From contig NC_135186.1 of the NCBI RefSeq assembly GCF_041146795.1, forward strand, positions 36,220,867-36,284,866: a stretch of DNA of 64,000 bases, given 5' to 3'. A program made the position numbers and the translations under genes. The notes beneath the pieces were generated by a model. It worked only from the letters and a program-made list of their open reading frames with translations, had not been told where the DNA came from and did no database searches. This document shows, piece after piece, positions 5,050 through 62,962 of the stretch (positions are counted from its first letter, which is position 1; every line of letters starts with the position of its first letter). The DNA is from Maylandia zebra (taxonomy: Eukaryota; Chordata; Actinopteri; Cichliformes; Cichlidae).

Positions 5050-6180
5050 ACAGCAACGTTTTAAATAAAATGAGAGATTCATCGTGGACATTGAGGAAGA
5101 CAACTAAGGTGTACGACGTGCTCTGCCTTAAATCTTCAGCAGCGTTGGAACATGAGAACCTGAGGTATGAAGGGAGCGTGCCAAGCTCCAAAAGTGACGG
5201 CTCGTACCACAACAGCAGTCCAGTTGAAGGGGACAGGCGGGACCTAGTTCCATTGGTCTCAATGTGCAGTAGCAGATGAGAGTTTGGTGGAGACAAGCTC
5301 ATCTCCAAATAACACGGGTGGCAAAACAGAGGCAGAATAAACCCTCTGACCCGTGCAACGACTAACCAGTAGTCTACCTGGGAAGTTGAAGAAAGAAGAG
5401 AAGGATCGCAGAGCATCATTTCACTCAAAGAGGAGGTGGCTGCGTGGCCCGAGGAGTGAGACAATAAGAGGAGTGTTGGCCTTTTCGAGGCCAAAGAGGA
5501 GGAGTATAGAGATGAAATATTATTTTACATTCATAATCTATGTTACTATTCATAATCCTTATTATTACTGTTGCATCATTTATGATTTATCATTATTGTC
5601 ATTTCATTGACACATTTATTGAAACTGATGATGTTATATTAAAGTCTGTATTTCAGGTGTTAGCATAAGCACATAATAATCTTTCATTGCAGGTGCAACT
5701 GTAATCATGTTATACACATATTGCATAATTAAAGGGTTGAAGCTTGGTCAAGTTAATTAATGGTTTGAAGCTACGGGCAGCGCGATGTCTGGCCGATCAA
5801 TGGAGCAAAGTTCAGCTATTGAAAGGTTGCCTACATGTTTACAGTATAATTTACTACATATTGCCTGTGTGCATTCAGCAGCCTGCTGCATTGGAGTTTG
5901 CCTGGTAACAGATGACTCAAACGGAGTCAGGAAGTATACTTCTAAAATGTCTTTGTTTGTTGAGTGAGGTCATGTACTGAGGTTAAAATACAGACATAAG
6001 TCTGCCTGCACACAGACTTGTGTTGCTTGTAAACGGTATGCTCATGCTCTGTTCTGAAGTGCAGAGAGTAGAATAACAGGAAGCATCTGGAGGAACAGAG
6101 GAAGTAGCGGTTCCTTTTTTAGAATATGTCCTCACTGGAGTTACTGGTCATCATAAGTATAAATATCACACCCACCTATT
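5050..6180 (+). mobile_element. Decayed endogenous retrovirus: 3' end of pol plus LTR-like sequence
   Basis: Bases about 5160-5410 align by eye with the last part of the intact pol gene at 60050-60290. Shared landmarks are a stretch on ccgt/agtccagttgaa, the gagtttggtgga/gagcttggtgga segment, cagaggcagaataaacc, and the following gacc/cca-agtagt-cacctgg-a block. The old copy carries many substitutions, indels and stop codons. Downstream, around 5625-5745, an LTR-like segment (tgatgatgttatatt, aggtgcaactgtaatc, ttatacacatattgcat) resembles the start of the intact LTR near 50695-50760. No env is recognisable. This is an ancient relative of the intact element at 50.6-61.5 kb. Confidence 0.6.
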
Positions 6181-47800: not shown

Positions 47801-48059
47801 CAGGTTAGCGACATGAGCTCATCCATCTTATTGGGCAAAGATCTTACGTTTCCAATAATTACAGAAGGAAGAGATGGTCGATAACGTCTCCTTCTCAGGC
47901 GACGGCGCTCCTTCCCAGCACGACACCCCCGTCTTTTCCTCCTCAGCTCGCTGGGAATATCGGGTCTGTCCGCCGGCAGTACCGCTGCAGGACTCAGCGC
48001 TAACAGCTGATCCTTACTGTAAACAAAGGATCTCTGCTCTGGGTCCCCAGACACGGGTG
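44830..48059 (-). mobile_element. L2-type LINE with ATAAG tail
   Basis: The minus-strand element has a tandem ATAAG/CTTAT tail at its 3' end (44830-44852) and a 970-codon ORF. It sits in LINE-A between an aaaaaagcataaaat / aaaaaagtagaaat pair (44815-44829 and 48060-48073), an imperfect target duplication. Its 5' end lies right at the ORF, so it is probably slightly 5'-truncated. Confidence 0.88.
45142..48054 (-). CDS. L2-type LINE ORF: endonuclease and reverse transcriptase
   Basis: The open frame of 970 codons has no ATG at its first position (GTG at 48052-48054), so the true N-terminus is probably missing. Endonuclease motifs: VRSLPNKMDEL, LTESWL, GDFNHASL and the closing SDHNLVHL. A serine/proline/threonine-rich linker (about residues 470-520) leads to the RT: GKKAAGPDGISSRVV, VVPVPKTSRP, PVALTSHLMKTLERL, the FFDFSSAFNTI block, GAPQGTVLAPFLF, catalytic FSDDSAIVG, and the C-terminal FYGVVCWGG and FRRSFLP. 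The catalytic box has FSDD instead of the commoner FADD. Apart from the missing start it looks intact, so this copy may be recent. Confidence 0.88.
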   Translation of the reverse strand: MSGDPEQRSFVYSKDQLLALSPAAVLPADRPDIPSELRRKRRGCRAGKERRRLRRRRYRPSLPSVIIGNVRSLPNKMDELMSLTWSQREYRQCSIMMLTESWLTSLTPDTSVTLPGFQLLRADRTRDSGKRKGGGLAVFVNDRWCNPGHITVKEQLCSRDIELLAISMRPYYLPREFSHVIAITAYVPPSANADAACDSLHSVVSRLQTQSPRALLIISGDFNHASLDSTLPTFTQYVTCPTRVNKTLDLLYANAEEAYSSSPLPPLGRSDHNLVHLVPVYEPLVRREPPATRTVQRWSEESEEALKDCFESTVWEVICDDHGEDIDSLTTCITDYINFCVDNTVPTRTVRCFSNNKPWITPEIKTVLKQKRRAFKSRDKEELKRVQRELRGLIRNGKESYRQKMENQLQQNNVGEVWRGLRTISGHKQQNSLPGRDVRWANELNHFFNRFDSAMRQSATSAADSPTPTAAVPPQTLHTSSIHPAHSPPPPTTASNTHSTQGSSLSLSTTQVRRELRRINGKKAAGPDGISSRVVRSCADQLCGVMEHLFNLSLRLGRVPQLWKTSCVVPVPKTSRPKDLNSYRPVALTSHLMKTLERLVLAQLRRLISSSLDPLQFAYQPGIGADDAVIHLLHRSLAHLETAGSTVRIMFFDFSSAFNTILPSVLKDKLVNSGVDHHLTTWILDYLTDRPQYVRTQGCVSDRVVCSTGAPQGTVLAPFLFTIYTADFSHNSTQCFLQKFSDDSAIVGLITDGDNKEYRGLTQDFVDWCQLNYLQINASKTKELVVDFRRHKHSPLQPLNIQGMDIEAVDSHRYLGVHLNNRLDWTHNSDALYRKGQSRLYLLWRLRSFGVEGPLLKKFYDSVVASAIFYGVVCWGGSISAGDRKRLNRVIRRASSVLGCPLDPVEVVSDRRTAAKLSSLMDNISHPMQQTVTALSSSFSGRLRHPRCGTERFRRSFLPTAVRLHNKDFN

Positions 48060-48071
48060 AAAAAAGTAGAA

Positions 48072-50453
48072 ATGACCGACGAATTCCTAAACACTATGTA
48101 CAGTTTGAGTTTACATCCTAAAATAACCAGGCCTAGCAGAATTACACCACATTGTGCCACCTTACTTGACAATATTTTCACTAACAATATGGAAAACAAC
48201 ATTGTGAGCGGATTATTAATTAATGACATCAGTGATCACCTACCAGTTTTTGCAGTTTATGACACTAATTATAAGAAAAATCAGCATGAAGAACAACTGA
48301 GATACAGACGTGTAAGGACAGAAGAAACTATGACTGCATTTAAGAACGATCTATTAAATCAGGACTGGGACAATGTGTACAAAGAAGCTGATATTGATAT
48401 TGCATATGGCATATTTTTAAGAATATTCATGGAGTTGTACGATAAAAACTGTCCAACAATAAAATACAACAGAAAGCACAAATATTCAGATAGACCATGG
48501 CTCACTAAGGGTTTACAAAATGCATGTAAAAAGAAAAATACACTCTATAGGGAATACCTAAAACAAAGAACAAAAGATGCTGAAAATAAATATAAAAAAT
48601 ACAAAAATAAGTTGACCAATATTATACGTGTATGTAGAAAGGAGTATTATAGTAAAATATTGAACAACAATAAACATAATATGAAAGGAATATGGGATGT
48701 TTTAAACGGTATCATTAAAAATAATTCTGGACAACAAAGTTATCCACAATACTTTATCGATAATGGCAATATTATGGAAAACACTGCTGATAAGGTCAAC
48801 AGCTTTAATCATTATTTTGTAAATATTGGACCAAAACTGGCAGAACAAATTCCTGAGTCACTGCCATCAGTAGAATGTAGTGAAAACCTGATTGATAGGA
48901 ACCCTAACTCAATGTTCCTCACATCAGTGGAGGAAAAAGAAATAATTGACATTGTACACATGTGTAAATATAAAACATCTACTGATTGTAATGATATTGA
49001 CATGAAAATCGTCAAGAAGGTCATTGAAGGAATTGTAGGACCTCTAACATATATTTGCAACTTATCATTTCAGACGGGAAAAGTGGCAAACAAAATGAAA
49101 ATAGCTAAAGTTGTGCCGCTGTATAAAACCGGGGATAGACGCCACTTCACAAATTACAGGCCTGTTTCTTTACTACCACAATTCTCCAAAATCCTAGAAA
49201 ACCTGTTTAATAAACGATTAGACAAATTCTTAGATAAATATAAATTACTCTCTGACAGTCAATATGGATTCAGATCAAAAAGATCAACATCTCTGGCATT
49301 AATCGAATCAATTGAGGAGATTACGAATGCTATAGATCAGAAACAGTATGCAGCTGGAGTATTTCTGGATCTCAAGAAAGCATTCGACACAATCAATCAT
49401 GACATATTAATTAATAAACTGGAACGGTATGGGATTAGGGGGGTTGTACTGCAATGGGTGAAAAATTATTTAAGTGACCGGAAACAATTTGTGAAGCTGG
49501 GTGTCCATTCCTCATCATGCTTGGACATTGCTTGTGGTGTTCCACAAGGCTCTGTACTGGGTCCAAAATTATTTATTATTTATATAAATGATATTTGTAA
49601 GGCATCTGATATATTAAAATTTGTATTATTTGCAGATGACACAAATATTTTTTGTTCTGGGGGGAATCTAAAGGAGCTGCTGGATACAATTACTTCAGAA
49701 ATGTGCAAAATTAAAAAATGGTTTAACAGGAACAAACTATCGCTAAATCTAAGTAAAACTAAAATTATCTTATTTGGGAATTCCCTTAGAAATGCACAAG
49801 TGCAGATTCATGTAGATGGTGTGGAAATTGAAAGAGTACTTGAACATAAGTTTCTTGGTGTGATTATAGATGATAAATTAAACTGGAAATCTCATATAAA
49901 TCATATACATAACAAAATTTCAAGAAGTGTCTCAATCTTGAGTAAAGTAAAACACATTCTGGACCACAAATCACTCCACATTCTCTATTGTTCCCTGATT
50001 GCACCGTATTTGAATTACTGTGCAGAGGTTTCGAGCAATACTTACAAATGTTCGCTATCATCAATCTTTATATTACAAAAAAGGGCCATAAGGATAATCC
50101 ATAAAACTGGTTACAGAGATCATACAAATCCACTATTCTTAAAATCAAAAATTCTAAAATTCACAGATCTGGTTCATTTTCTCACAGCACAAATTATATA
50201 TAAAGCAATAAATAACCTGCTTCCTGACAATATTCTAAAAATGTTTTCTAAAAGGGAACGGGGATACAATTTGAGGGGGGAATTAAATTTAAAACATCCT
50301 CGTATCCGTACAACATTAAAAAAATTTTGCATCTCTGTGAGTGGAGTGAAGCTGTGGAACAGACTAAGTAAAGATATGAAGCAATGTCCAAGCATGGCGC
50401 AGTTTAAAAGCGGTTTAAGGATACGGTTTTTACAGGGTACAGGGAAAAGGTAG
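48072..50453 (+). pseudogene. LINE-A reverse transcriptase, second part
   Basis: After the L2 insertion LINE-A resumes at MTDEFLNTMYSLSL, then LLDNIF and the endonuclease end SDHLPVFAVY. The RT follows: VVPLYKTGDRRHFTNYRPVS, YGFRSKRSTSLAL, FLDLKKAFDTINHDIL, GVPQGSVLGPKLF and catalytic FADDTNIF. The C-terminus, ILQKRAIRIIHKTGYRDH and SGVKLWNRLS, ends at 50453. This half has no internal stop. The open stretch upstream to 47874 is antisense L2 sequence and does not belong to the gene. Confidence 0.85.

Positions 50454-50520: not shown

Positions 50521-50594
<74 letters not shown>
50521..50594. repeat. (TA)n microsatellite, left of the retrovirus
   Basis: About 74 bases of TA directly abut the 5' LTR. 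A second run (61505-61554) abuts the 3' LTR. The retrovirus evidently inserted inside one TA array, which hides the exact target duplication. Confidence 0.95.
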
Positions 50595-50597
<3 letters not shown>

Positions 50598-51472
50598 GGG
50601 GATGAACAGAAAAGTATTTTACCAGCATAATATAATCTGCAGTATGATCATTGCTTTAACAATGTAACAGATAGCTTTAAGATGGCCTTAAGATGTTTAT
50701 GATGATATTAACTTTATATCTCAGGTGCAGTTATAACTATTTTATACATATTGCATATCTGTGCTTATTTGAGTTGATGTTCAGGTTCTTTAAAGGTTTT
50801 AAGCCTCACTGACGTGACTGTTCAGGTGATACATGCTGAGGGAAAACTAGAACATAGAAGGAATTGCAATACATGCTTACAAAACACTTATATCAGGTCA
50901 TTTTATATTAAGGTTTTAGTAGAGGTTCTTGGTTAAAACATTTATTTGGTAGAAGACATACACATAGTCTCAGTGAGCTTCTGGTCTAGTGAAAGGTCAG
51001 AAGTGCAACAGGTGAATTGAGAAAGAGCATTTGAGGACGAGACACAGACAGTAGGAGGTGAAGAGGTGACACAAAGAGCATGTGAGGTCAACACGTACAC
51101 ACACATTAGTTAAGATTTATTTAGAGGAGAGATTAGTTAGGTCTAGACGAGAAAGAGGAACAATTCATTTTAAGATAAGAACGGAAAGTACCAAGCCATG
51201 AAAATAGAAGATGATTTTCTGGGTGAAAAGTCATGATGATGTTGATCTGATCTATGTATAAAATGTACCGGTGACGCATGAAGGGGCGTCAGTAAACAAA
51301 CCCTGATGTTATAAAATAATTGTTTGTGCCTTAGTAAGTTGAAGATCAATTGCTGTTTTCAGTGATCTTCCCACGTGTGAATTAAAATCTTCGTTTGACT
51401 TCACCCGGCCGGACCAGTGTGGTTATTTTTCGATCACCTCTTGTACCCTTTCTCAACTTTTGAATCTTAACA
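50595..51472 (+). repeat. 5' LTR of the retrovirus
   Basis: Starts TGTGGGGATGAAC and ends GAATCTTAACA. A TATA box (TATAAAA) is at 51257-51263 and an ATTAAA poly(A) signal at 51381-51386. This gives a U3 of roughly 690 bp and a short R. The CCCGGCCGG and following segment would lie in or next to U5. Confidence 0.93.
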
Positions 51473-51495
51473 TTTGGGGGCTTCGTCCGGTGGTT
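51473..51495 (+). other. Putative primer-binding site
   Basis: Just after the LTR and two T residues the sequence reads TGGGGGCTTCGTCCGG. It resembles the tRNA-Pro binding site of gammaretroviruses, with one extra T. The primer tRNA is therefore a guess. Confidence 0.5.
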
Positions 51496-53734
51496 GAGTA
51501 AGGGAGAAAAGTGGAGGTGTGAGCGGTGGTCCGAGGTGGTCAGACGGGCAGACTTGGCCAGTGGTCAAAAGTGAGTGGACGCACGCCGGCGCATCATATT
51601 TAAAAAAGGTAAGACACTACCTGTTGAATTATTTCCAAAGTGTGTCAAATTGGGCTGTGAAAATTAAAAGTCTACCCACTGAAATTACTGGTGCATGTCT
51701 GTTTTGATTTTGATAAGAATCTGAGGATTTAAAGCAGTTGGACTGCTGGTAATGATTGAATGCGGTTGGACCGTTTAGTATGTTAGGGAATCTGCTTATT
51801 TTTTGGTTATAAGGTTGGACCTGCTTCAGTTATACACTTGTTTTGGGTGTTGATTGTTGTTTCAAAGTATTATAAATTATTTTAGAACGGAACCGTGGGG
51901 GTTCTAGGAAGCGCAGAGCCCGGAGGTTACGCTCCCTCCTTGTCGTGGACGCGCGACATTGACCTCTCGGCGAAGAGGGATAGTTCAGTGTGGCTTAACT
52001 GTGGGGTACAGGGCATCCTGGAATTAAGCTAGGAGTTAGAGTCTCCTTACCGTTTGGAACGGTATCTGCGCTTTTTTGGGCAGCAAAGGTTGGACCTTGG
52101 GTGTTGGACACTTTTAAATTGAGTTAGGGATTTTAGAAATGAGGCCAGAAACAGTTAAAGTCTTGATACTGGTTAATTGATCGCAAAAAACTCAGGGAGT
52201 TTATCGGTTAGACTGTTATGTTAAATTTGTCGAAATTCGATAGGTGTTAAAACGTTTAAAATCTGTGCAGTTGTAAATATAAGACGTCTCTGTAATAAAA
52301 AAAGATCTCTGTGGGTCGAGTCAGCAATGCACTGACTGCCTGCTGCCATTTTTAGATGGAGAGTGTGTGTGCATGCAAATGAGGCAGCTGATGCAGAGCG
52401 CATGAGAGGACTATGCTTTCGGTTTCGTGTGTTATTCAGCTCTATAACTATTGTTTGCAAATGTGGATAAATGTCTGCAATTAAAATGCTGGCTTAGTAA
52501 ATAAAAACATTGTAAATATATGAATGGTGACAGCGTTTCAAAATAGAATATAAGAATTGTTTGTGTGTAAAACCAACGTTTAGGTAAGAAGATTTAAGGT
52601 GGATTTGAAGGCATAAACAAAAAAATAAAAGGGTTACAGTCTGCAAGTGTTGTTAATTCATGAGCTGACTGGATGCAGAGTAAGTGGAGTGGTCATCCTG
52701 AGAGGATTGAATGATGCTCTAACTCTGTGGTCAAGTCAGACATAGGCTTTAAGTAACCATGAGCCACTAATAAGCGTGACAGATTAATGAGTATGTGTAA
52801 ATTGAACTTGTTAAATAGCCTTAATAGAAGTAACTCAATGAACACGCAATAAAGTGGACTTTTTAGGGGTAGTTTACCACTGATACCATAAAAAGCAACT
52901 TAATTAGTAGTTCAATAACAAATTTTAAAGATAACCTTTGTTATTTGATAAGAGAGAGAAAAATTCAGGTTACATATAGTAAATAAATAAGGAAATGTTA
53001 ATCTCTGCGTCATTCCACACTGAAATTTCAATTGTAGGGGATCATTTGGAGGTGAATTGTGTAGGACACGGGGAGACAGAAGAATCTCCCCATGAGTTTT
53101 CGGTGCGCATAGAAATTGAGGAGGCTGAACTGGAAGCCTGCCTGGGTCGTTGTTTTTGTTTATTTGAGGGTCTGCTGGAAATTTGTGAGAACGACCACCT
53201 TGATATGTGGGAGCCTTCTCGGGCAGCGATTTTTTTGTTAAACCTGTGGCAGGCTGTGCAAAATGGAGAAAGCTTTGACATAATGACATAAAGGTGATTT
53301 CTTGGTTTTAGATTTATTAGTACGGGACAAGTTGAGGGACCCTTGAGGGTGTGTTGCTGTAAAGTATATAAGGGACGCGCAGTGCCGTTAATGGGTTTAA
53401 AATAAATGAAAAAACGGAAAACACTAATCCGAGGAACTATTGGAGAGGTAAGTATACGGAGGTGAGCGCGTTGCGCATAAGGGTTGCTGGTGTCATATAT
53501 TAACACTTTGAGGGCGAATAATTTTGATTGAGTGTTAACGCTTGAGAACGCGAGGACAGCGTTTAAAGTGCTGGGTTAAACTTTGTGTGTCACCGAGCAG
53601 GGGAAGAGGAGCCAGTGGTTGCGAGAACAGCGAGACGAAGACTGAAACCGAAAGTTAAGCGTGTCTGGGTGACCTAGACCTAGAAGGTGGAGTCGACCAA
53701 CGCCGTTGGAAGAGGTAAGTCTGTGTTTCAGAGA
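51496..53734 (+). other. Long retroviral leader with two splice-donor-like sites
   Basis: About 2.2 kb lies between the primer site and the gag ATG. GAGAG|GTAAGT at 53448 and AAGAG|GTAAGT at 53715 are consensus donors; the second lies upstream of the gag ATG (53735). Spliced messages were probably once used for env. A 98-codon ORF is embedded at 52995-53291. Confidence 0.55.
52995..53291 (+). CDS. Leader ORF of the retrovirus, 98 codons, unknown function
   Basis: This ATG-initiated ORF lies upstream of gag and encodes an acidic protein (MLISASFHTEISIVGDHLEV ... EIEEAELEACLGRCFCLFEG ... LLNLWQAVQNGESFD). It has a cysteine pair (CLGRCFC) and a helical C-terminus with W and L heptad-like spacing. 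I recognise no family. Some epsilonretroviruses carry an accessory gene in this position (orfC of the walleye viruses), but there is no visible sequence relation. It could also be an incidental ORF: 98 codons in a 2.2-kb leader is suggestive only. Confidence 0.4.
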   Translation: MLISASFHTEISIVGDHLEVNCVGHGETEESPHEFSVRIEIEEAELEACLGRCFCLFEGLLEICENDHLDMWEPSRAAIFLLNLWQAVQNGESFDIMT

Positions 53735-56125
53735 ATGGCTGACAGCTCGGGTGCGACACCTAGTGGGAAAAGGGGATGCAAACCTCTGAAGGATCAGCTT
53801 GAACAGCTTAAGAAAGCTATTCGTTTGGCTTCACCTGGAGCATTAAAAGCAGCAGAGAAAGAGTGCCAAGCGATGGAGGTTGAGGTAAGCAAACTTATTA
53901 CATCTCAACAGAAAGGGCTGGGTGATAAAATAGCTCTGAGCCTGGTGTTAAAAACTGAGGGAAAGAGATGTGAACAGAAATTGAAACAATTTGAAGAGGA
54001 GTCCAAGGGACATTCAGTGAACAGGAAAGCCAGAGGAGAAATTAAGGACCTAAAAGAAACTCATGACAGGTGCTGTAAGTGGCTGTTCCTGTGGAGGGCA
54101 GCCTCTTCCTGGATGACAGAAGAGGATGACACAGGAAAATCAGGAGACATGGTGAGTATAATGGAGTCTTTGAAACATTTGAAGGAGGAAAATAAGAAGC
54201 TAAAGGACCAAGTGAAGGACTTGACTCCGAAGGTAGAAGAGGCTAACAGGTATTACACACCGAAACTATATCCTTGGGCCGAATTGGCACGTTGTGCACC
54301 ACCACCACCATATGTCATGCCTGTAATGACCCTTGGAGGGGGACAAGTTCGTGGTCCTGATGGACAGACTGGAGTTGTCCTTGGCGGAATAGCAGATGTT
54401 GAATATACTACTACTCCCCTGAATATCCCTGAAGAAGGGATAAGGGCAGTGGAATGTCAGTCCCAAGATATGGGAGGGAGAATGATAGCCTCAGCTGCAG
54501 ATGAAGGCTCGACCTCGCCTCCCAGTTTGGTGGATAGTGGAAACATCATACGGGCCGAAGTGTCTACAGTGGAACAGCCAAAGCAGGACGGGGAGGCCAA
54601 AAGGACCCCTAGAATGAAGGACAAAATACCACAAGGAGTGATAACCAAGGGAGAACATTGGGAAGGAGAAGTGTATGGACAAATGCATGAGCCCCCACGT
54701 GCGTTAATAGAGGCATTAACGGCATTGGAGGTTATAAAGCAGAGAGTAATGCAGGGAGGGCCAGAAGAGGAGAATGAAGACCGTGCGAGGTCATCAGAAG
54801 AAGAGGATGATGAGGAGGACGAAGATGGAGGAGCTGAGCCCCAACCAAGTACAAGCTTAATTTTGAGGAAAAGAAGTGTGAAGAGAGATCAAGCACAGAG
54901 ACGGCCCATATTTAAGAGCTCAAAGGGAAAAGAAAAGTTGAGGAAGAGTAGAAAAGTGAGTTTTGAACAAGGAGCTCCTGACCCTGGTTTAAATCTGCCT
55001 CTAATAGCAGGTCCAAAGAACGAACCAGTTTATCGCGCCTATAAGGTGAGAGATTTGGAAGCATTGGTTAAACAACTTCCACCAATAACTGAGGGAGGAG
55101 CTAGCTGGTTGAGAAGGCTGGGCGCGCTGACCGAAGGAGAAGAATTAGCGCTGGGCGATTTTCGCGCTTTGGCCGGACGTTGTATGCTGGGTGGTGGGTT
55201 AGCAGATGTAGAGCAGATAGCGCAAACAACCAGATATGCAAATGACCTACAATACCATGAGGTGCAGAATGACTTAGCAGATGCAGTCCGGGAGAAGTAC
55301 CCAACTCCTAACTCTGGAGCCATTCCAAAAATTATTTGGGATCCTAAAAACACACCCAGAGAGTTTTTAGCTAAAGCAAAGGAACAATGGTTGTTAGAAA
55401 CAGGAATACATCCGGGGAAGGAGGGTGAAAGTAGAGCGTGGTTTCGTTCGGCAGTGCTGGCAGGGCTGCCCAACCAGGTTGCAGTTGACTTGGAAAAGAA
55501 CCCAGATTTTGCCGTTGCAGACTCGGTGCAGTGGGAGAGACATGTGACCCACAGACTTCAGCAGGAACAGGATTTGGCAAACAAACAAAAGAAAGAGTTG
55601 GAGGAGGCACAGGCGCAACTGGTAAAGATACAGCTGACGGAGGCGAGAAACAAGGCAGGAGACAGAAAGAAAGAGGATAAAGAGAGCGCAAGGAAAATAA
55701 TGGTGGCAAGGCCCCAGCCTGATCCTGTGCCTGACTGGCCAAATCAGGATCCAGGTCTCTACCCTGACGATCGTTGGCCCGCCAATGCACCAAGGCAGCG
55801 TCAACCAGTGGGGAATTGGGGGACCGGTGGACTGCAGAGAGGGCGTGGTGGATCCGTGAGGGGAGGACAAAGGGCTCGGAATCCGGGGAATCCTGGCAGT
55901 GTGTCTTGGACTGCGTGTCTGAGATGTGGAGCAGAAGGACACTGGGCCCGAGATTGCCCTGAACCGCCGCAGAACTATCAGGGGCGAGGCTATCGATCCC
56001 AGGCACGAGGAGGCCCAAGACAAAGAGCTGCTTACGGGGGAGCACATCAAGCTCCAAACCCGAATGCAGCACCAGCCGCCCAGTACCCAGTAGCTGACTG
56101 GGGCTGGGAGAGGGAGCAATACTGA
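53735..56125 (+). CDS. gag: Gag polyprotein
   Basis: 796 codons from ATG 53735, in a good context (gagaATGGC). The frame is open upstream to 53687, but without an ATG. The N-terminal third is rich in charged helices and probable coiled coil (LKKAIRLASPGALKAAEKEC; SLKHLKEENKKLKDQVKDL). A proline patch CAPPPPYVMP follows, which could act as a late domain. An acidic run, SSEEEDDEEDEDGG, lies near residue 360. The capsid-like part includes YKVRDLEALVKQLPP and FLAKAKEQWLLETG. One CCHC zinc knuckle, CLRCGAEGHWARDC, is encoded at 55916-55957. Gag assembles the particle and packages RNA. The frame ends in TGA at 56123, continuous with pol. Confidence 0.92.
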   Translation: MADSSGATPSGKRGCKPLKDQLEQLKKAIRLASPGALKAAEKECQAMEVEVSKLITSQQKGLGDKIALSLVLKTEGKRCEQKLKQFEEESKGHSVNRKARGEIKDLKETHDRCCKWLFLWRAASSWMTEEDDTGKSGDMVSIMESLKHLKEENKKLKDQVKDLTPKVEEANRYYTPKLYPWAELARCAPPPPYVMPVMTLGGGQVRGPDGQTGVVLGGIADVEYTTTPLNIPEEGIRAVECQSQDMGGRMIASAADEGSTSPPSLVDSGNIIRAEVSTVEQPKQDGEAKRTPRMKDKIPQGVITKGEHWEGEVYGQMHEPPRALIEALTALEVIKQRVMQGGPEEENEDRARSSEEEDDEEDEDGGAEPQPSTSLILRKRSVKRDQAQRRPIFKSSKGKEKLRKSRKVSFEQGAPDPGLNLPLIAGPKNEPVYRAYKVRDLEALVKQLPPITEGGASWLRRLGALTEGEELALGDFRALAGRCMLGGGLADVEQIAQTTRYANDLQYHEVQNDLADAVREKYPTPNSGAIPKIIWDPKNTPREFLAKAKEQWLLETGIHPGKEGESRAWFRSAVLAGLPNQVAVDLEKNPDFAVADSVQWERHVTHRLQQEQDLANKQKKELEEAQAQLVKIQLTEARNKAGDRKKEDKESARKIMVARPQPDPVPDWPNQDPGLYPDDRWPANAPRQRQPVGNWGTGGLQRGRGGSVRGGQRARNPGNPGSVSWTACLRCGAEGHWARDCPEPPQNYQGRGYRSQARGGPRQRAAYGGAHQAPNPNAAPAAQYPVADWGWEREQY

Positions 56126-56160
56126 CGGAGCCCGGAGGAACTGAACAGCGTGGGTACGGC
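56120..56160 (+). promoter_or_regulatory. Gag-pol stop-codon readthrough site
   Basis: The gag stop reads TAC TGA CGG. Pol is in the same frame: no stop occurs from 56126 to 60325. UGA followed by CGG is a known leaky context in several readthrough viruses. Gammaretroviruses also join gag and pol by readthrough, usually of UAG with a 3' RNA pseudoknot. The GC-bearing 3' flank could fold, but I did not compute a structure. Confidence 0.75.
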
Positions 56161-59100
56161 AGAACCCATGCTGTCAATGACCGTTGAAGGCACTGAATTG
56201 CCCTTCCTGGTGGATACTGGAGCAACATACTCAACACTGAAAGACACACCAGACAGTGCGACACTCTCCTGTCACACAGTTAATGTGGTAGGCTTTTCCG
56301 GGATTCCAATGACACTGCCATTGACAGATCCAGCATTGACACAGCTGGGAAAACAGACTTTGAAACACCAATATGTGGTGTCCTCACAGGTGCCTGCAAA
56401 TCTCATGGGCAGGGACCTGCTTGTGAAACTGGGAGCCACAATCATGTGCTCACCAGATGGACTGATTGTTACTCTGCCTGGAGGAAAAGAATTCCCGTGT
56501 CTGGGATCACCTTCAAAGACTCAATATCTAGTCCAGAACTCTGAACAACCCACAGCCGAAATCTACTGGGGGAGGCTAGTGGAAGAAGGCATTCTGAGAC
56601 ATTATCAGCTATGGAAACCCTGGATAATGAGCCTGGCCGTCTATTCCCCTCCGCGAGATCCTTTCCACGTTACACTCTTTTATGATAGGGAAGATAACGA
56701 TATCTATCGGGAACAGTTCCAGTCTGATCTTGAGGGACAGACGTGGAATGTGCAAACACATAACATTTATGTTGGACCAGAAGGTGTGGCCGCGGCTGTG
56801 AAATTTACGGATGAACAACTGCCTTGGTACAATGTGGGAGAGGATTCAGCCCCTCACATTACATTGGCGGTCCACGAGGGTCATGGGCTAAGAGATCTGG
56901 GACCAATGGTCAAGCGGGCGCTGGACAACGCATGCTGGCAAAGCACCCAAATTCCAAATGTCTGGTATGCACCAAAATGTAAAATATATCGCATAACTTG
57001 TTTGTCCAACGATGCAGTGATCTTAGAACATAAAGAAATCTCCAGAATACAGGGCAGGGAAAGAATGGATCATCCTGATGCAGTAGCTGAGCTCTCAAAA
57101 TTGCCTGATACTTTGTGGTCCGCAGGGCCCACAGATGTAGGTCTAGCTAACTGTTCGCCTGTCCTGTTCCAGCTGAAGTCTGACACACCAATTAACAGAC
57201 CACAATACAAGCACAAAACTGAAGCAGAAGAAGGTATAGCTGAAACCATTGAAGGACTGTGGAAGGCAGGAGTGCTTGAGCCCTCATGGTCATTTTGGAA
57301 CACACCTATTTTGCCAGTAGAAAAACATGGGACAGGGAAGTACCGTATGGCACATGATTTGAGAGCAATAAATGCCATACTGAGGACTGACACTGTGCCT
57401 GTACCAAATCCCTACACGGCTCTGACCGAAATTACTGGGGACCAAAAGTGGTTCACATGTATTGACCTAGCGAATGCATTCTTTTGTCTCCCACTGCACG
57501 AGTCACTCAGAGACATTTTCTCATTCACATACAGAGGCCGGAAATTTAGGTACACACGCCTACCACAAGGCTTTGCACTCTCACCAGGTATTTTCAATCA
57601 GGTGTTAAAAGAGGCATTGTCCCCATGTCAACTGCCAGAGGGCTGTACATTAATACAGTATGTTGATGATCTTCTTATTGCAGCCCCGTCAGCAGCGGCC
57701 TGTACGGCAGCATCGCTCGTGGTGTTGAACAGATTGGCGGAGTGTGGCTTCAAAGTGAGTAAAGAAAAACTGCAGTTGGTACGGCCAGAGGTAACATTCC
57801 TGGGCCGGGTGATCGCACACAGATCAGTGGGGTTAATGAACACACACAGAGACCAAATTCTGACACATCCAAAACCAAGAACTGTGAAGGAGTTGCTTTC
57901 CTTTCTTGGCTTGACAGGTTACAGCAGGCAGTTCATTCCGAACTATGCGGGTAAAACTGCCCCTTTAAGGGACCTGATCAAGAAAGTTGGTGTCCGAAAT
58001 CTGAAGGCTGAGTTGCCTTGGACGCCGGACACAGAGACAGCGTTCATTTCGCTAAAACAGGATTTGTCAAGAGCCACAGATCTGGCCACTCCTAACTATG
58101 ATGAGGCATTTTATCTTGATGTTTCAGAAACAAAGGGAGTTGTGAATGGTGTGTTGTTTCAGAAAAAAGGGGGAGGTAGGGATGTACTTATGTATGTCAG
58201 CATAAGATTAAATTCAACAGAAGCAAGGCATCCCACATGTACACAACACGCAGCAGGAGTAGCAAAGATAATTCAGAAAACAGCACACATAGTGAGGGAA
58301 CACCCACTGAAAGTGCTTACCACACACAGTGTAGTGGCCTATGTGAACTCACAGGTATTCACAATGACTCCACTGACGCAACAAAGGTTGAGCAAAATTT
58401 TAGAGGCGCCAAATTTGATATTCACACATGAAGGAATAAATATGGCAGACCTAATGGGGTCAGGAGAACCACATGACTGTATTAAGAAAGCCCAGGTTGA
58501 AGGAAAAATCAGGGAAGACCTAAAGGCAGAGCCCATACTTGGAGCTGAGGATTGGTTCACAGATGGATGCTGCCACAGAGATGAAGAAGGATTGAAAGCG
58601 GGCTATGCAGTAGTCTGTAGAGTAGGAACTGAGTTTCAGGTGAAAGAAGCAGGAAAAATTGAGGGACAACAGTCGGCCCAGAGAGCTGAAGTGATAGCCC
58701 TAACTCGAGCCCTGAGGCTGGCTAAAAACATGAGAGTGAACATCTACACTGACTCAGCATATGCGTTTGGAGCAGCTCATGTGGAACTGGCTCAGTGGAA
58801 GAGAGCCGGGTTCAGAACGGCCACTAATGCACCCATCTGTCACAAAAAGGAAATGGAGGAACTGGAAAAGGCCCTGGAGGACCCAGACGAGGTAAGTATT
58901 ATAAAATGCAAAGGCCACTCACAAGCAGACAGTATGGTGGCAAAGGGAAATCAGAAAGCTGATGAAGCCGCAAAGGAAGCAGCGGGCTACAAAGGACAGA
59001 GACAAATGGTGCAGGTAACCCCAGAAGAGGAGGTTAGCACTAACAGCATGGAAGAAGTTAGACAGGCTCAGGAGGAGACATCCCCAGAGGAAAAGGGGGT

Positions 59101-60328
59101 GTGGGAAAACAAAGGAGCCTGGCAAGATGGCGGTTTGTGGAGGGGGCCAGATGGGCGTCCCGCTTTAACGGCCAAAATGGCGGAACAAAAGGTGAATGAG
59201 GCTCACGGGCTTGGTCACGTGGGAGTGAAACAGATGGAGAGAAATTTGTGCCGATGGTGGCATCCTGATTTGAGAAGGATGATACTAGAAAAGGCCAGAA
59301 CGTGCCTAATTTGTGGGGCACACAATCCAAAGCCAGCAGTAAAACCTGAGGCTGGTAAGTTTCTCATGCCAGAAAGGCCAGGAGAGGAGGTCGTGATTGA
59401 TTATACCGACATGATTGATACAGGCCCAGGTGGGGTGAGGTATTTGTTGGTGTGTGTGGATGTTCTGACTGGATGGCCCGAAGCATGGGCGACCAAACGT
59501 GAAGACGCGAAAAGTGTGATTAAGTGCTTAATCAATCATTACATTCCAAGGCATGGGTTTCCCAAGAGAATTAGATCAGATAATGGTACTCACTTCAAGA
59601 ACAAAGATTTGCAAGAGGTAGAGAGGATGTTGGGAGTGCAACATAAGTTCGGGACGGTCTATCATCCTCAATCTCAAGGAAAAGTAGAGAGGATGAACCT
59701 AAATTTGAAAAACAAGTTGGCTAAAATCTGTGCGCAGACAGGGCTAAATTGGGTCGCAGCCCTGCCCATTGCTTTGATGACCATAAGATGTTCTGTTAAC
59801 CAATCCACAGGTTTCACCCCTTATGAGCTGCTGACTGGGAGACAGTTTCCAGCACCCTGGACAGTGGTCCCGGTGGAGCAGCCCAGGACAAGCAACAGGT
59901 CTCATGCAGAATATTTTAATGAGTTGAAGGCTCTTGTGTCCAGCTTTACAAAACAGGTCACTTGTGAGAGACCCACGGGGAACGGAGAGGTCCCGGACGC
60001 AAAGGCAGTGTGGCTAAAGGTCATTAAGCGAAAGTGGAAGGAGCCCCGCTGGACTGGTCCGTATGAGGTGACCGCCCGGACGGCTACAGCAGTCCAGCTG
60101 AAAGGGAAAGGCGACACCTGGTACCACTGGTCGCAGTGTGCACCCGCACACGAGAGCTTGGTGGAGGAAAATTCGTCTTCAAGGAACGCAGGTGTCAAGG
60201 AACAGAGGCAGAATAAACCTCTTCACCTGTGTAACGGGCCGACCAGTAGTCCACCTGGAAGGCCGAAGAAAGAAGAGCAGCCTAGGAGGAGATCGCCGCG
60301 CCTACAGAAAGGAGTGGTAACAAATTGA
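56126..60328 (+). CDS. pol: Pro-Pol polyprotein: protease, 2H-like domain, RT, RNase H, integrase
   Basis: Residues below are counted from codon 56150. Protease: LVDTGATYS with D22-T-G, and LMGRDLL (85-91). A 2H phosphoesterase-like segment (about 150-295) follows. RT: LPQGF at 471, catalytic YVDDLL at 504-509. RNase H: D805, E847, D868 and D938 in the usual contexts. Integrase: H1019, H1023, C1052, C1055 (HHCC), then D1084, D1144 and E1180 with exact 35-residue spacing, and a GPY-type end (WTGPYEV). Stop at 60326-60328. All catalytic residues are present and no frame break is seen. The protein is made as a readthrough product of gag and matures into enzymes that copy and integrate the genome. 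Confidence 0.93.
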   Translation, partial: RSPEELNSVGTAEPMLSMTVEGTELPFLVDTGATYSTLKDTPDSATLSCHTVNVVGFSGIPMTLPLTDPALTQLGKQTLKHQYVVSSQVPANLMGRDLLVKLGATIMCSPDGLIVTLPGGKEFPCLGSPSKTQYLVQNSEQPTAEIYWGRLVEEGILRHYQLWKPWIMSLAVYSPPRDPFHVTLFYDREDNDIYREQFQSDLEGQTWNVQTHNIYVGPEGVAAAVKFTDEQLPWYNVGEDSAPHITLAVHEGHGLRDLGPMVKRALDNACWQSTQIPNVWYAPKCKIYRITCLSNDAVILEHKEISRIQGRERMDHPDAVAELSKLPDTLWSAGPTDVGLANCSPVLFQLKSDTPINRPQYKHKTEAEEGIAETIEGLWKAGVLEPSWSFWNTPILPVEKHGTGKYRMAHDLRAINAILRTDTVPVPNPYTALTEITGDQKWFTCIDLANAFFCLPLHESLRDIFSFTYRGRKFRYTRLPQGFALSPGIFNQVLKEALSPCQLPEGCTLIQYVDDLLIAAPSAAACTAASLVVLNRLAECGFKVSKEKLQLVRPEVTFLGRVIAHRSVGLMNTHRDQILTHPKPRTVKELLSFLGLTGYSRQFIPNYAGKTAPLRDLIKKVGVRNLKAELPWTPDTETAFISLKQDLSRATDLATPNYDEAFYLDVSETKGVVNGVLFQKKGGGRDVLMYVSIRLNSTEARHPTCTQHAAGVAKIIQKTAHIVREHPLKVLTTHSVVAYVNSQVFTMTPLTQQRLSKILEAPNLIFTHEGINMADLMGSGEPHDCIKKAQVEGKIREDLKAEPILGAEDWFTDGCCHRDEEGLKAGYAVVCRVGTEFQVKEAGKIEGQQSAQRAEVIALTRALRLAKNMRVNIYTDSAYAFGAAHVELAQWKRAGFRTATNAPICHKKEMEELEKALEDPDEVSIIKCKGHSQADSMVAKGNQKADEAAKEAAGYKGQRQMVQVTPEEEVSTNSMEEVRQAQEETSPEEKGVWENKGAWQDGGLWRGPDGRPALTAKMAEQKVNEAHGLGHVGVKQMERNLCRWWHPDLRRMILEKARTCLICGAHNPKPAVKPEAGKFLMPERPGEEVVIDYTDMIDTGPGGVRYLLVCVDVLTGWPEAWATKREDAKSVIKCLINHYIPRHGFPKRIRSDNGTHFKNKDLQEVERMLGVQHKFGTVYHPQSQGKVERMNLNLKNKLAKICAQTGLNWVAALPIALMTIRCSVNQSTGFTPYELLTGRQFPAPWTVVPVEQPRTSNRSHAEYFNELKALVSSFTKQVTCERPTGNGEVPDAKAVWLKVIKRKWKEPRWTGPYEVTARTATAVQLKGKGDTWYHWSQCAPAHESLVEENSSSRNAGVKEQRQNKPLHLCNGPTSSPPGRPKKEEQPRRRSPRLQKGVVTN
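56600..57034 (+). other. 2H phosphoesterase-like domain inside pol
   Basis: Between protease and RT lies a segment of about 145 residues found in no standard retroviral pol. It has two H-x-T motifs: FHVTLFYD (H173, T175; codon at 56666) and PHITLAVHEG (H236, T238; codon at 56855), 63 residues apart, each in a beta-strand-like hydrophobic setting. Helical MVKRALDN follows, then strand-like KIYRITCL. Paired H-x-[T/S] is the catalytic signature of 2H phosphoesterases (LigT-like, AKAP7-like), which cleave 2',5'- or cyclic phosphodiester bonds. Function is inferred from motif and spacing only. Confidence 0.6.
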
Positions 60329-60399
60329 GAGTTTGAAAAGGGGTGGTTTAAATAAAAAGAGTAAAAAAGGGAAAGTGGAAGGGGCTTGCTCTGTCAATT

Positions 60400-60576
60400 A
60401 TGTTGTCTCTATCTGTATTGGTGGGTATTTTGATGACCTGTGGTTGTTGTCTCATTCCTTGTGCCCGAAGGTTGGTAGAGAAAGTGATTGTAAAGGCAGT
60501 GGACCCTGGGGCGGTGGCCCCTATGTCCATGATGCCGATGATGGATCTGGAAGTAGTCGAGTGGACTGAGGAGTGA
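60400..60576 (+). pseudogene. Env remnant: membrane anchor and cytoplasmic tail
   Basis: A 58-codon frame starts at ATG 60400 and encodes a hydrophobic span LSLSVLVGILMTCGCCLIPC, then basic ARRLVEKVIVKA and a tail ending EVVEWTEE. The span followed by CGCC and basic residues matches the end of gammaretrovirus-type transmembrane Env. The frame is open for about 16 codons upstream and then stops. The surface subunit and the fusion-active ectodomain are absent, so the element cannot make an envelope. Confidence 0.75.
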
Positions 60577-60609
60577 ACAACAACCTGTGTATCGACCTCT
60601 GGTGTGCCA

Positions 60610-60626
60610 GAGGTCGAAAGGGGGAT
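60610..60626 (+). promoter_or_regulatory. Polypurine tract
   Basis: gaggtcgaaagggggat ends directly at the 3' LTR start. The purine run primes plus-strand DNA synthesis. Confidence 0.8.
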
Positions 60627-61503
60627 TGTGGGGATGAACAGAAAAGTATTTTACCAGCATAATATAATCTGCAGTATGATCATTGCTTTAACAATGTAAC
60701 AGATAGCTTTAAGATGGCCTTAAGATGTTTATGATGATATTAACTTTATATCTCAGGTGCAGTTATAACTATTTTATACATATTGCATATCTGTGCTTAT
60801 TTGAGTTGATGTTCAGGTTCTTTAAAGGTTTTAAGCCTCACTGACGTGACTGTTCAGGTGATACATGCTGAGGGAAAACTAGAACATAGAAGGAATTGCA
60901 ATACATGCTTACAAAACACTTATATCAGGTCATTTTATATTAAGGTTTTAGTAGAGGTTCTTGGTTAAAACATTTATTTGGTAGAAGACATACACATAGT
61001 CTCAGTGAGCTTCTGGTCTAGTGAAAGGTCAGAAGTGCAACAGGTGAATTGAGAAAGAGCATTTGAGGACGAGACACAGACAGTAGGAGGTGAAGAGGTG
61101 ACACAAAGAGCATGTGAGGTCAACACGTACACACACATTAGTTAAGATTTATTTAGAGGAGAGATTAGTTAGGTCTAGACGAGAAAGAGGAACAATTCAT
61201 TTTAAGATAAGAACGGAAAGTACCAAGCCATGAAAATAGAAGATGATTTTCTGGGTGAAAAGTCATGATGATGTTGATCTGATCTATGTATAAAATGTAC
61301 CGGTGACGCATGAAGGGGCGTCAGTAAACAAACCCTGATGTTATAAAATAATTGTTTGTGCCTTAGTAAGTTGAAGATCAATTGCTGTTTTCAGTGATCT
61401 TCCCACGTGTGAATTAAAATCTTCGTTTGACTTCACCCGGCCGGACCAGTGTGGTTATTTTTCGATCACCTCTTGTACCCTTTCTCAACTTTTGAATCTT
61501 AAC

Positions 61504-61504
<1 letters not shown>
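60627..61504 (+). repeat. 3' LTR of the retrovirus
   Basis: 878 bp; I saw no difference from the 5' LTR when comparing line by line. TATAAAA is at 61289-61295 and ATTAAA at 61413-61418. It is followed immediately by the right TA array. Confidence 0.93.

Positions 61505-61554
<50 letters not shown>
61505..61554. repeat. (TA)n microsatellite, right of the retrovirus
   Basis: About 50 bases of TA, the continuation of the array at 50521-50594, leading directly into the Dong/Rex6-type fragment. Confidence 0.93.
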
Positions 61555-61559
<5 letters not shown>

Positions 61560-62962
61560 CCAAGAGTGAACGAGACATCGATTCACTGATCCACACTACC
61601 AGGCTATACAGCAATGACATTGGAATGTCGTTCGGACTGGAGAAGTGTAGTCGGATGGTAACAAAGAGAGGGAAGGTAGTCAGAACAGAGGGGATTGAAC
61701 TACCAGAAGGCAACATTGCAGACATAGAGGACAGTTACAAGTACCTGGGGATCCCGCAGGCAAATGGGAACCATGAAGAGGCCGCTAGAAAGGCTGCAAC
61801 CACCAAGTACCTGCAGAGGGTCAGGCAAGTCCTGAGGAGTCAGCTGAATGGTAAGAACAAGATCCGGGCCATCAACACATACGCCCTGCCCGTGATCAGG
61901 TACCCTGCTGGGGTAATAAGCTGGCCAAAGGAGGAGATAGAAGCCACTGACATAAAGACAAGAAAGCTCCTGACCATGCATGGAGGGTTTCACCCCAAGT
62001 CCAGCACCCTGAGGCTGTATGCTAAGCGGAAGGAAGGGGGCCGGGGACTGGTGAGTGTCAGCACCACAGTCCAGGATGAGACAAGGAACATCCAAGAATA
62101 CATTGGGAAGATGGCCCCAACTGACCGAGTGCTCAGTGAATACCTCAGGCAGCAGAAACCCAAGAAAGAGGAGGGAGACGAGGAACCATCATGGAAGGAC
62201 AGGCCCCTGCACGGTATGTACCACCGGCAGATAGAGGAGGTGGCTGATATCCAGAAATCCTACCAGTGGCTGGACAAAGCTGGACTGAAAGACAGCACAG
62301 AGGCACTAATCATGGCAGCACAAGAACAAGCTCTGAGTACAAGATCCATAGAGGCTGGGGTCTATCACACCAGGCAAGACCCCAGGTGCAGGCTGTGTAA
62401 AGATGCCCCAGAGACTATCCAGCACATAACAGCAGGGTGCAAGATGCTAGCAGGCAAGGCATACATGGAACGCCATAACCAAGTGGCCGGCATAGTGTAC
62501 AGGAACATCTGTGCCGAGTATAACCTAGAAGTCCCGAGGTCAAAATGGGAGATGCCCCCAAGGGTGGTGGAGAATGACCGAGCTAAGATCCTGTGGGACT
62601 TCCAGATACAGACGGACAAAATGGTGGTGGCTAACCAACCGGACATAGTGGTGGTAGACAAACAGAAGAAGACGGCCGTAGTGATCGATGTAGCGGTTCC
62701 CAATGACAGCAATATCAGGAAGAAGGAACACGAGAAGCTGGAGAAATACCAAGGGCTCAGAGAAGAGCTCGAGAGGATGTGGAGGGTGAAGGTAACGGTG
62801 GTCCCCGTGGTAATCGGAGCACTAGGTGCGGTGACTCCCAAGCTAGGCGAGTGGCTCCAGCAGATCCCGGGAATAACATCGGAGATCTCTGTCCAGAAGA
62901 GCGCAGTCCTGGGAACAGCTAAGATACTGCGCAGGACCCTCAAGCTCCCAGGCCTCTGGTAG
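61553..62962 (+). pseudogene. Dong/Rex6-type RT C-terminus with restriction-like endonuclease
   Basis: 469 codons read from an incidental ATG in the TA array. It starts YAKSERDIDSLIHTTRLYSN, the segment that normally follows the YMDD-type box, so palm and fingers are lost. It then has EDSYKYLGI, a zinc knuckle CRLCKDAPETIQHITAGC (near 62390-62441), and a restriction-like nuclease core PDIVVVDKQKKTAVVIDVAV, where PD and a later D are spaced as in R2/R4-type enzymes. It ends TLKLPGLW. The part present is open and well preserved, but without the RT core it is dead. Confidence 0.8.

Follow-up and report, generated by a model that had tools for sequence, protein, structure and literature searches.

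Members of the 2H phosphoesterase superfamily are defined by two H-x-T/S motifs, each followed by a hydrophobic residue (PMC5434554, PMC3290555). Catalysis by CNPase involves activation of a water molecule by His309 and protonation of the leaving 3' oxygen by His230; the phosphate is held by two threonines, and the base sits between Phe235 and Val321 (PMC3290555). Domains of this kind are already known from fish retroviruses, as reviews mention them: a 2H domain in walleye dermal sarcoma virus is credited to Mazumder et al. 2002 (PMC9503650), and a CNPase gene in epsilon-like endogenous retroviruses of fish to Basta et al. 2009 (PMC4977317). Here we describe such a domain in the pol gene of a provirus that lies in a 64,000-nucleotide stretch of Maylandia zebra contig NC_135186.1 (hereafter, the window), between the protease (PR) and the reverse transcriptase (RT). 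The domain is almost surely a 2H phosphoesterase. We put at roughly 0.72 the probability that it is an active CNPase-type phosphodiesterase built into Pol, as judged from its conserved motifs, its predicted fold, its position, and its intact reading frame.

A first-pass annotation, made from the letters alone, had recognized two H-x-T motifs, H173/T175 and H236/T238, in this part of pol. Both are exact on translation from 56150 (pol residues are counted from that codon), with the histidine codons starting at 56666 and 56855, and each motif is followed by a hydrophobic residue, as in 2H proteins. The motif count by itself is weak evidence and by composition unremarkable: when the 145-residue stretch was shuffled 20,000 times, two H-x-T motifs arose in 3.8% of the shuffles and two H-x-[T/S] motifs in 12.3%. 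It is conservation, judged like selection from protein sequences, that establishes them. A hand-picked alignment, A1, holds the window and 24 of 51 related proteins, selected to be diverse and complete. Close copies were omitted, as were P0015, P0035, P0044, P0046, P0047, and P0049, and no row with a broken motif was included. Within the 15 rows of A1 that are less than 70% identical to one another, H173, T175, and H236 are invariant, position 238 is threonine (eight rows) or serine (seven), and the middle residues of the motifs vary. Only 13 of the 183 columns are invariant in these rows, and they include three of the four catalytic positions, the fourth being threonine or serine only; residue 178 is tyrosine in 14 of the 15. 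Across all 25 rows, and for A1 only, the invariant positions (in domain numbering) are D50, H53, T55, G92, A94, P115, H116, and L119. The check proposed with the annotation, whether both His-x-Thr pairs are conserved in related fish pols, thus came out positive in this chosen set.

The pattern is much the same in a 52-row alignment of the window and the full set of 51 proteins, many of whose rows are close cichlid copies and hence not independent. The first histidine is present in 50 of 52 rows and its threonine in 51, whereas the second histidine is found in all 49 rows that reach it, followed at the next catalytic position by threonine (36) or serine (13). With P0053, P0054, and P0055 added, the counts become 53/55, 54/55, 51/52, and 52/52 (threonine or serine), respectively.

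The predicted model has the two-lobed 2H fold, with the motifs at the start of central strands 53–59 and 116–122 (domain numbering), and it resembles the catalytic domain of CNPase rather than the LigT type. Together, conservation and fold rule out a chance occurrence of the motifs. In profile alignment H173, T175, and Y178 fall on His230, Thr232, and Phe235 of CNPase, and H236 and T238 on His309 and Thr311 (residue numbers are those of the mouse protein, applied to human chain 1woj). Profile searches of the PDB up to an E-value of 10 listed CNPase alone, as two of two chains (E 0.13 and 2.1) in one search and as 19 of 19 chains (best 0.021) in another; both motifs are in register with 1woj in the former, and the matches shown in the latter span the first motif only. 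A single-sequence PDB search gave one match, to an unrelated enzyme (E 0.35), which we discarded.

Between PR and RT the sole Pfam match up to E 10 was 2_5_RNA_ligase2 (0.13, below cut-off). Among 25 members of the family, 12 matched 2_5_RNA_ligase2, five LigT_PEase, two CNPase, and one Acb1, all of which we take, by recall or by name, to be 2H families. In a more distant set of 11, LigT and XisH had two matches each; single matches went to CNPase, 2_5_RNA_ligase2, and three unrelated families, and P0054 matched none. In PHROGs, 10 of the 25 members matched the phage family phrog_755, "RNA ligase" (best 0.0011), and eight other families were matched by one member each; a scan of NCBIfam returned no match. 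Weak singly, the profile matches draw their weight from the two commonest Pfam families, both of them 2H, and from the register of both motifs with 1woj. The first-pass interpretation is partly supported: its proposal of a 2H-like domain between PR and RT is upheld by conserved motifs, predicted fold, and in-register alignment. The profile and fold comparison suggested along with it came out well for the fold and for the two most frequent families, whereas the window member fell short of the curated Pfam cut-off (PF13563 at about 12.8 bits against 27), a threshold that is not defining for so diverse a family. AKAP7, named there as a template, is not among the 50 fold matches listed, which carries no weight either way. 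The annotated span, 56600..57034, was slightly short: because the folded core extends over residues ~134–298 (56549–57043), with a start at 56600 the first strand is lost and the first helix truncated.

How widespread is the arrangement? A search with this part of pol against 5.8 billion proteins yielded 51 proteins at E ≤0.01 among 156 candidates; a search from P0048 passed 17 of 758 candidates, three of them new, and one from P0052 recovered only itself among 937. The best database match to the domain, a protein from Maylandia zebra (P0002, 98%), is in keeping with a haplochromine cichlid as host. Named hosts include cichlids, Brienomyrus, Takifugu, Centropristis, Scomber, Xiphophorus, Cynoglossus, Xyrichtys, Metynnis, Astyanax, Corythoichthys, Syngnathus, Gymnodraco, Synchiropus, and Merluccius. 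Pieces of the window's PR, domain, and RT were all matched by 44 of 54 proteins, in the order PR-domain-RT in every one of the 44; the other ten, in which the protease match, the RT match, or both are missing, are probably partial or mis-modelled genes. Pattern scans of IMG/VR returned 120 stretches for the domain and 12 for the RT piece, none confirmed as a relative. We also note that a dozen pol gene models of Sarotherodon galilaeus (P0008, P0018, P0020, P0022–P0024, P0026–P0028, P0044, P0046, and P0049) are named after host genes, tenascin and butyrophilin among them, probably an annotation artefact.

Several observations weigh against an active CNPase-type enzyme. Tyrosine replaces the first histidine in P0015 and the second in P0053; P0049, which looks chimeric, is without the first motif, and P0044, P0046, and P0047 are without the second (missing in 4 of 54 by a regular-expression count). 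The E-values for named families are weak singly, and the list for the 25 members also contains XisH (3/25), Integrin_b_cyt (2/25), and seven families with one member each, probably chance matches. The place of Val321 of CNPase is taken in most members by lysine or arginine (residue 248), so that the substrate may differ, with a somewhat different contact to base or RNA. Finally, conservation is lower here than in the other domains of Pol. In 14 divergent full-length pols (domain less than 60% identical, all five pieces matched), mean identity to the window by best local alignment was 45% for the domain; PR averaged 52%, integrase 52.5%, RNase H 53%, and RT 62%. Judged from these sequences, the domain is evolving faster than its neighbours yet is not decaying.

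The domain would be translated within Gag-Pol when ribosomes read through the gag UGA, would enter virions at the level of Pol, and would then be freed by the protease or retained at the N terminus of RT. If it works as CNPase does, His236, like His309, would activate water and His173, like His230, would protonate the leaving 3' oxygen, with Thr175 and Thr238 holding the phosphate and Tyr178 stacking against the base in the manner of Phe235. The outcome would be conversion of a 2',3'-cyclic phosphate to a 2'-phosphate and a free 3'-OH, a product carried over from CNPase. The most likely role would be to remove, within the reverse-transcribing particle, 2',3'-cyclic-phosphate ends, such as host metal-independent RNases would leave, from RNA or small nucleotides. 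The purpose may be the healing of RNA ends in the particle, the removal of nucleotide signals, or both.

Other activities are conceivable for a 2H fold. The first-pass annotation raised the possibility of a 2',5'-phosphodiesterase that would counter RNase L by degrading 2-5A, in the manner of coronavirus NS2 and rotavirus VP3; we consider this unlikely. An enzyme that cuts a cyclic-dinucleotide alarm signal, for example the 2',3'-cGAMP produced once cGAS has detected viral DNA, has a model in phage Acb1, also a 2H protein that cuts cyclic nucleotides; the fold is nearer to CNPase than to Acb1, however, and none of the 25 members matches any PADLOC family, which leaves that activity improbable as well. 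Enzyme folds are often retained as binders, and host CNP, itself a 2H protein, is listed as a binder of HIV-1 MA that inhibits particle formation (PMC7471995), so that a 2H fold can meet Gag. The domain could accordingly be enzymatically dead and kept as a spacer or as an RNA-binding or Gag-binding piece. The catalytic residues are among its most conserved, which a spacer would not need, and we give a dead domain little chance. We favor an active CNPase-type phosphodiesterase.

To our knowledge extra enzymes inside retroviral Pol are few, and dUTPase is the usual one. A catalytic accessory function inside Pol would follow from a larger proposal, which we regard as doubtful: that retroviruses of a broad teleost lineage, exogenous ones among them, carry PR-2H-RT as a lasting module and thereby bring into the virion an enzyme that, inside the reverse-transcribing particle, edits RNA ends or clears away nucleotide alarm signals. 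A CNPase-type domain whose catalytic residues are kept across distant fish would imply that cyclic-phosphate ends, or nucleotides related to them, are important to these viruses. The chemistry could be tested on the isolated domain, given that a coupled assay on 2',3'-cNADP+ exists (PMC5434554).

Table 1. Features of the provirus and of the domain within it (window coordinates)
Feature	Position	Strand	Remarks
5' long terminal repeat (LTR)	50593..51474	+	extent of exact repeat; 882-bp direct repeat, 100% identical to 60625-61506; (AT)n run at left flank
gag frame	53684..56125	+	open frame, 813 amino acids; TGA stop at 56123-56125; zinc knuckle PF00098, 1e-05
pol frame	56126..60328	+	1400 codons, no internal stop; in frame with gag, directly after gag stop
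Aspartic protease	56159..56443	+	pol residues 4-98; PF00077, E 9.9e-12 on N-terminal 450 residues
2H phosphoesterase domain, CNPase-like	56510..57058	+	pol residues 121-303; folded core ~134-298
First catalytic motif H173-V-T175	56666..56674	+	aligned to first HxT of human CNPase 1woj
Y178	56681..56683	+	five residues past first His; place of base-stacking Phe235 of mouse CNPase; ungapped profile alignment there
Second catalytic motif P235-H236-I-T238-L239	56852..56866	+	aligned to second HxT of 1woj
RT, RNase H-like tether, most of RNase H	57092..58900	+	PDB search; 58900 is end of searched stretch
Integrase zinc-binding and core domains	59174..59668	+	PF17921 (below cut-off), PF00665
Polypurine tract	60616..60624	+	purine run adjoining 3' LTR
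3' LTR	60625..61506	+	extent of exact 882-bp repeat

The remainder of pol is regular, as had been claimed: PR, RT, RNase H, and the integrase core score above their Pfam cut-offs, and the zinc-binding part of integrase just below (22.9 against 25.5 bits). Pfam places the protease at residues 4–98 and RT from residue 390, followed by RNase H-like pieces, RNase H, and integrase (RVP, RVT_1, PF17919/PF17917, RNase_H, and rve); the PDB search extends RT N-terminally to about residue 315. From the position of PF17919/PF17917 ahead of RNase_H we infer an RNase H-like tether. The closest solved RT is 4hkq_A (RT/RNase H p80, 6.6e-97), which we take to be gammaretroviral, with Pr125Pol (7o24) at 4.4e-48; the closest solved integrase is that of PFV (1.4e-27). 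The copy has the features of a gamma/epsilon-like retrovirus, namely LTRs, gag, and a pol with PR, RT, tether, RNase H, and integrase, and is without env; this placement rests on the closest solved RT. Lokiretroviruses were also considered: their RT falls outside the canonical retroviruses and their env resembles Mononegavirales fusion proteins (PMC9040795, PMC10996621). Membership is thought unlikely, because the RT is nearest to 4hkq/5dmq/4mh8 by a wide margin; the copy has no env to compare.

The identity of the two LTRs points to a recent insertion. Because pol continues in the same frame directly after the gag TGA, the arrangement suggests that Gag-Pol is made by stop-codon read-through rather than by frameshift. 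With just 296 bp (60329–60624) from the pol stop to the 3' LTR, there is no env downstream of pol in this copy; P0027, a related gene model, contains the env family PF00429. The ~2.2 kb between the 5' LTR and gag (51475–53683) contain no plus-strand frame of at least 150 codons. An RT frame (PF00078) at 47859–50453 precedes the provirus, and a frame at 61496–62962 with a weak zf-RVT match, below cut-off, follows it, an arrangement suggestive of proviral insertion into a long interspersed nuclear element at the (AT)n run. A short relic far from the provirus, at window positions 5191–5292, shares 76% identity with the end of the proviral integrase.

How, then, does the domain compare with those described before? 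In the literature searched we found no statement of the PR-2H-RT placement, its breadth, or its motif conservation, which the original descriptions might contain. The best viral fold match, BFVD entry Q2VF30_1 (E 4.8e-16, TM score 0.89 by query length), is 29% identical over 194 columns of a 1072-residue model, and may come from salmon swim bladder sarcoma virus. Two walleye virus entries rank next among the viral fold matches (second, E 2.9e-10; third, 1.5e-9), and the distant homologue matches them in fold as well; these entries are only 15–19% identical, and the library labels both "Envelope polyprotein," so that their domain may or may not lie in Pol. Walleye dermal sarcoma virus is likewise a fish retrovirus with a 2H domain. 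The catalytic domains of vertebrate CNPase and goldfish RICH are 13–16% identical to the retroviral domain. CNPase proteins have an N-terminal P-loop kinase-like domain, whereas the retroviral domain is preceded by a protease, and no P-loop family is among the Pfam matches of pol. With the endogenous retroviruses of Basta et al. the locus shares the CNPase assignment, ray-finned fish hosts, and an epsilon-like character. The review describes theirs as additional open reading frames; the domain reported here belongs to the pol frame and lies between PR and RT.
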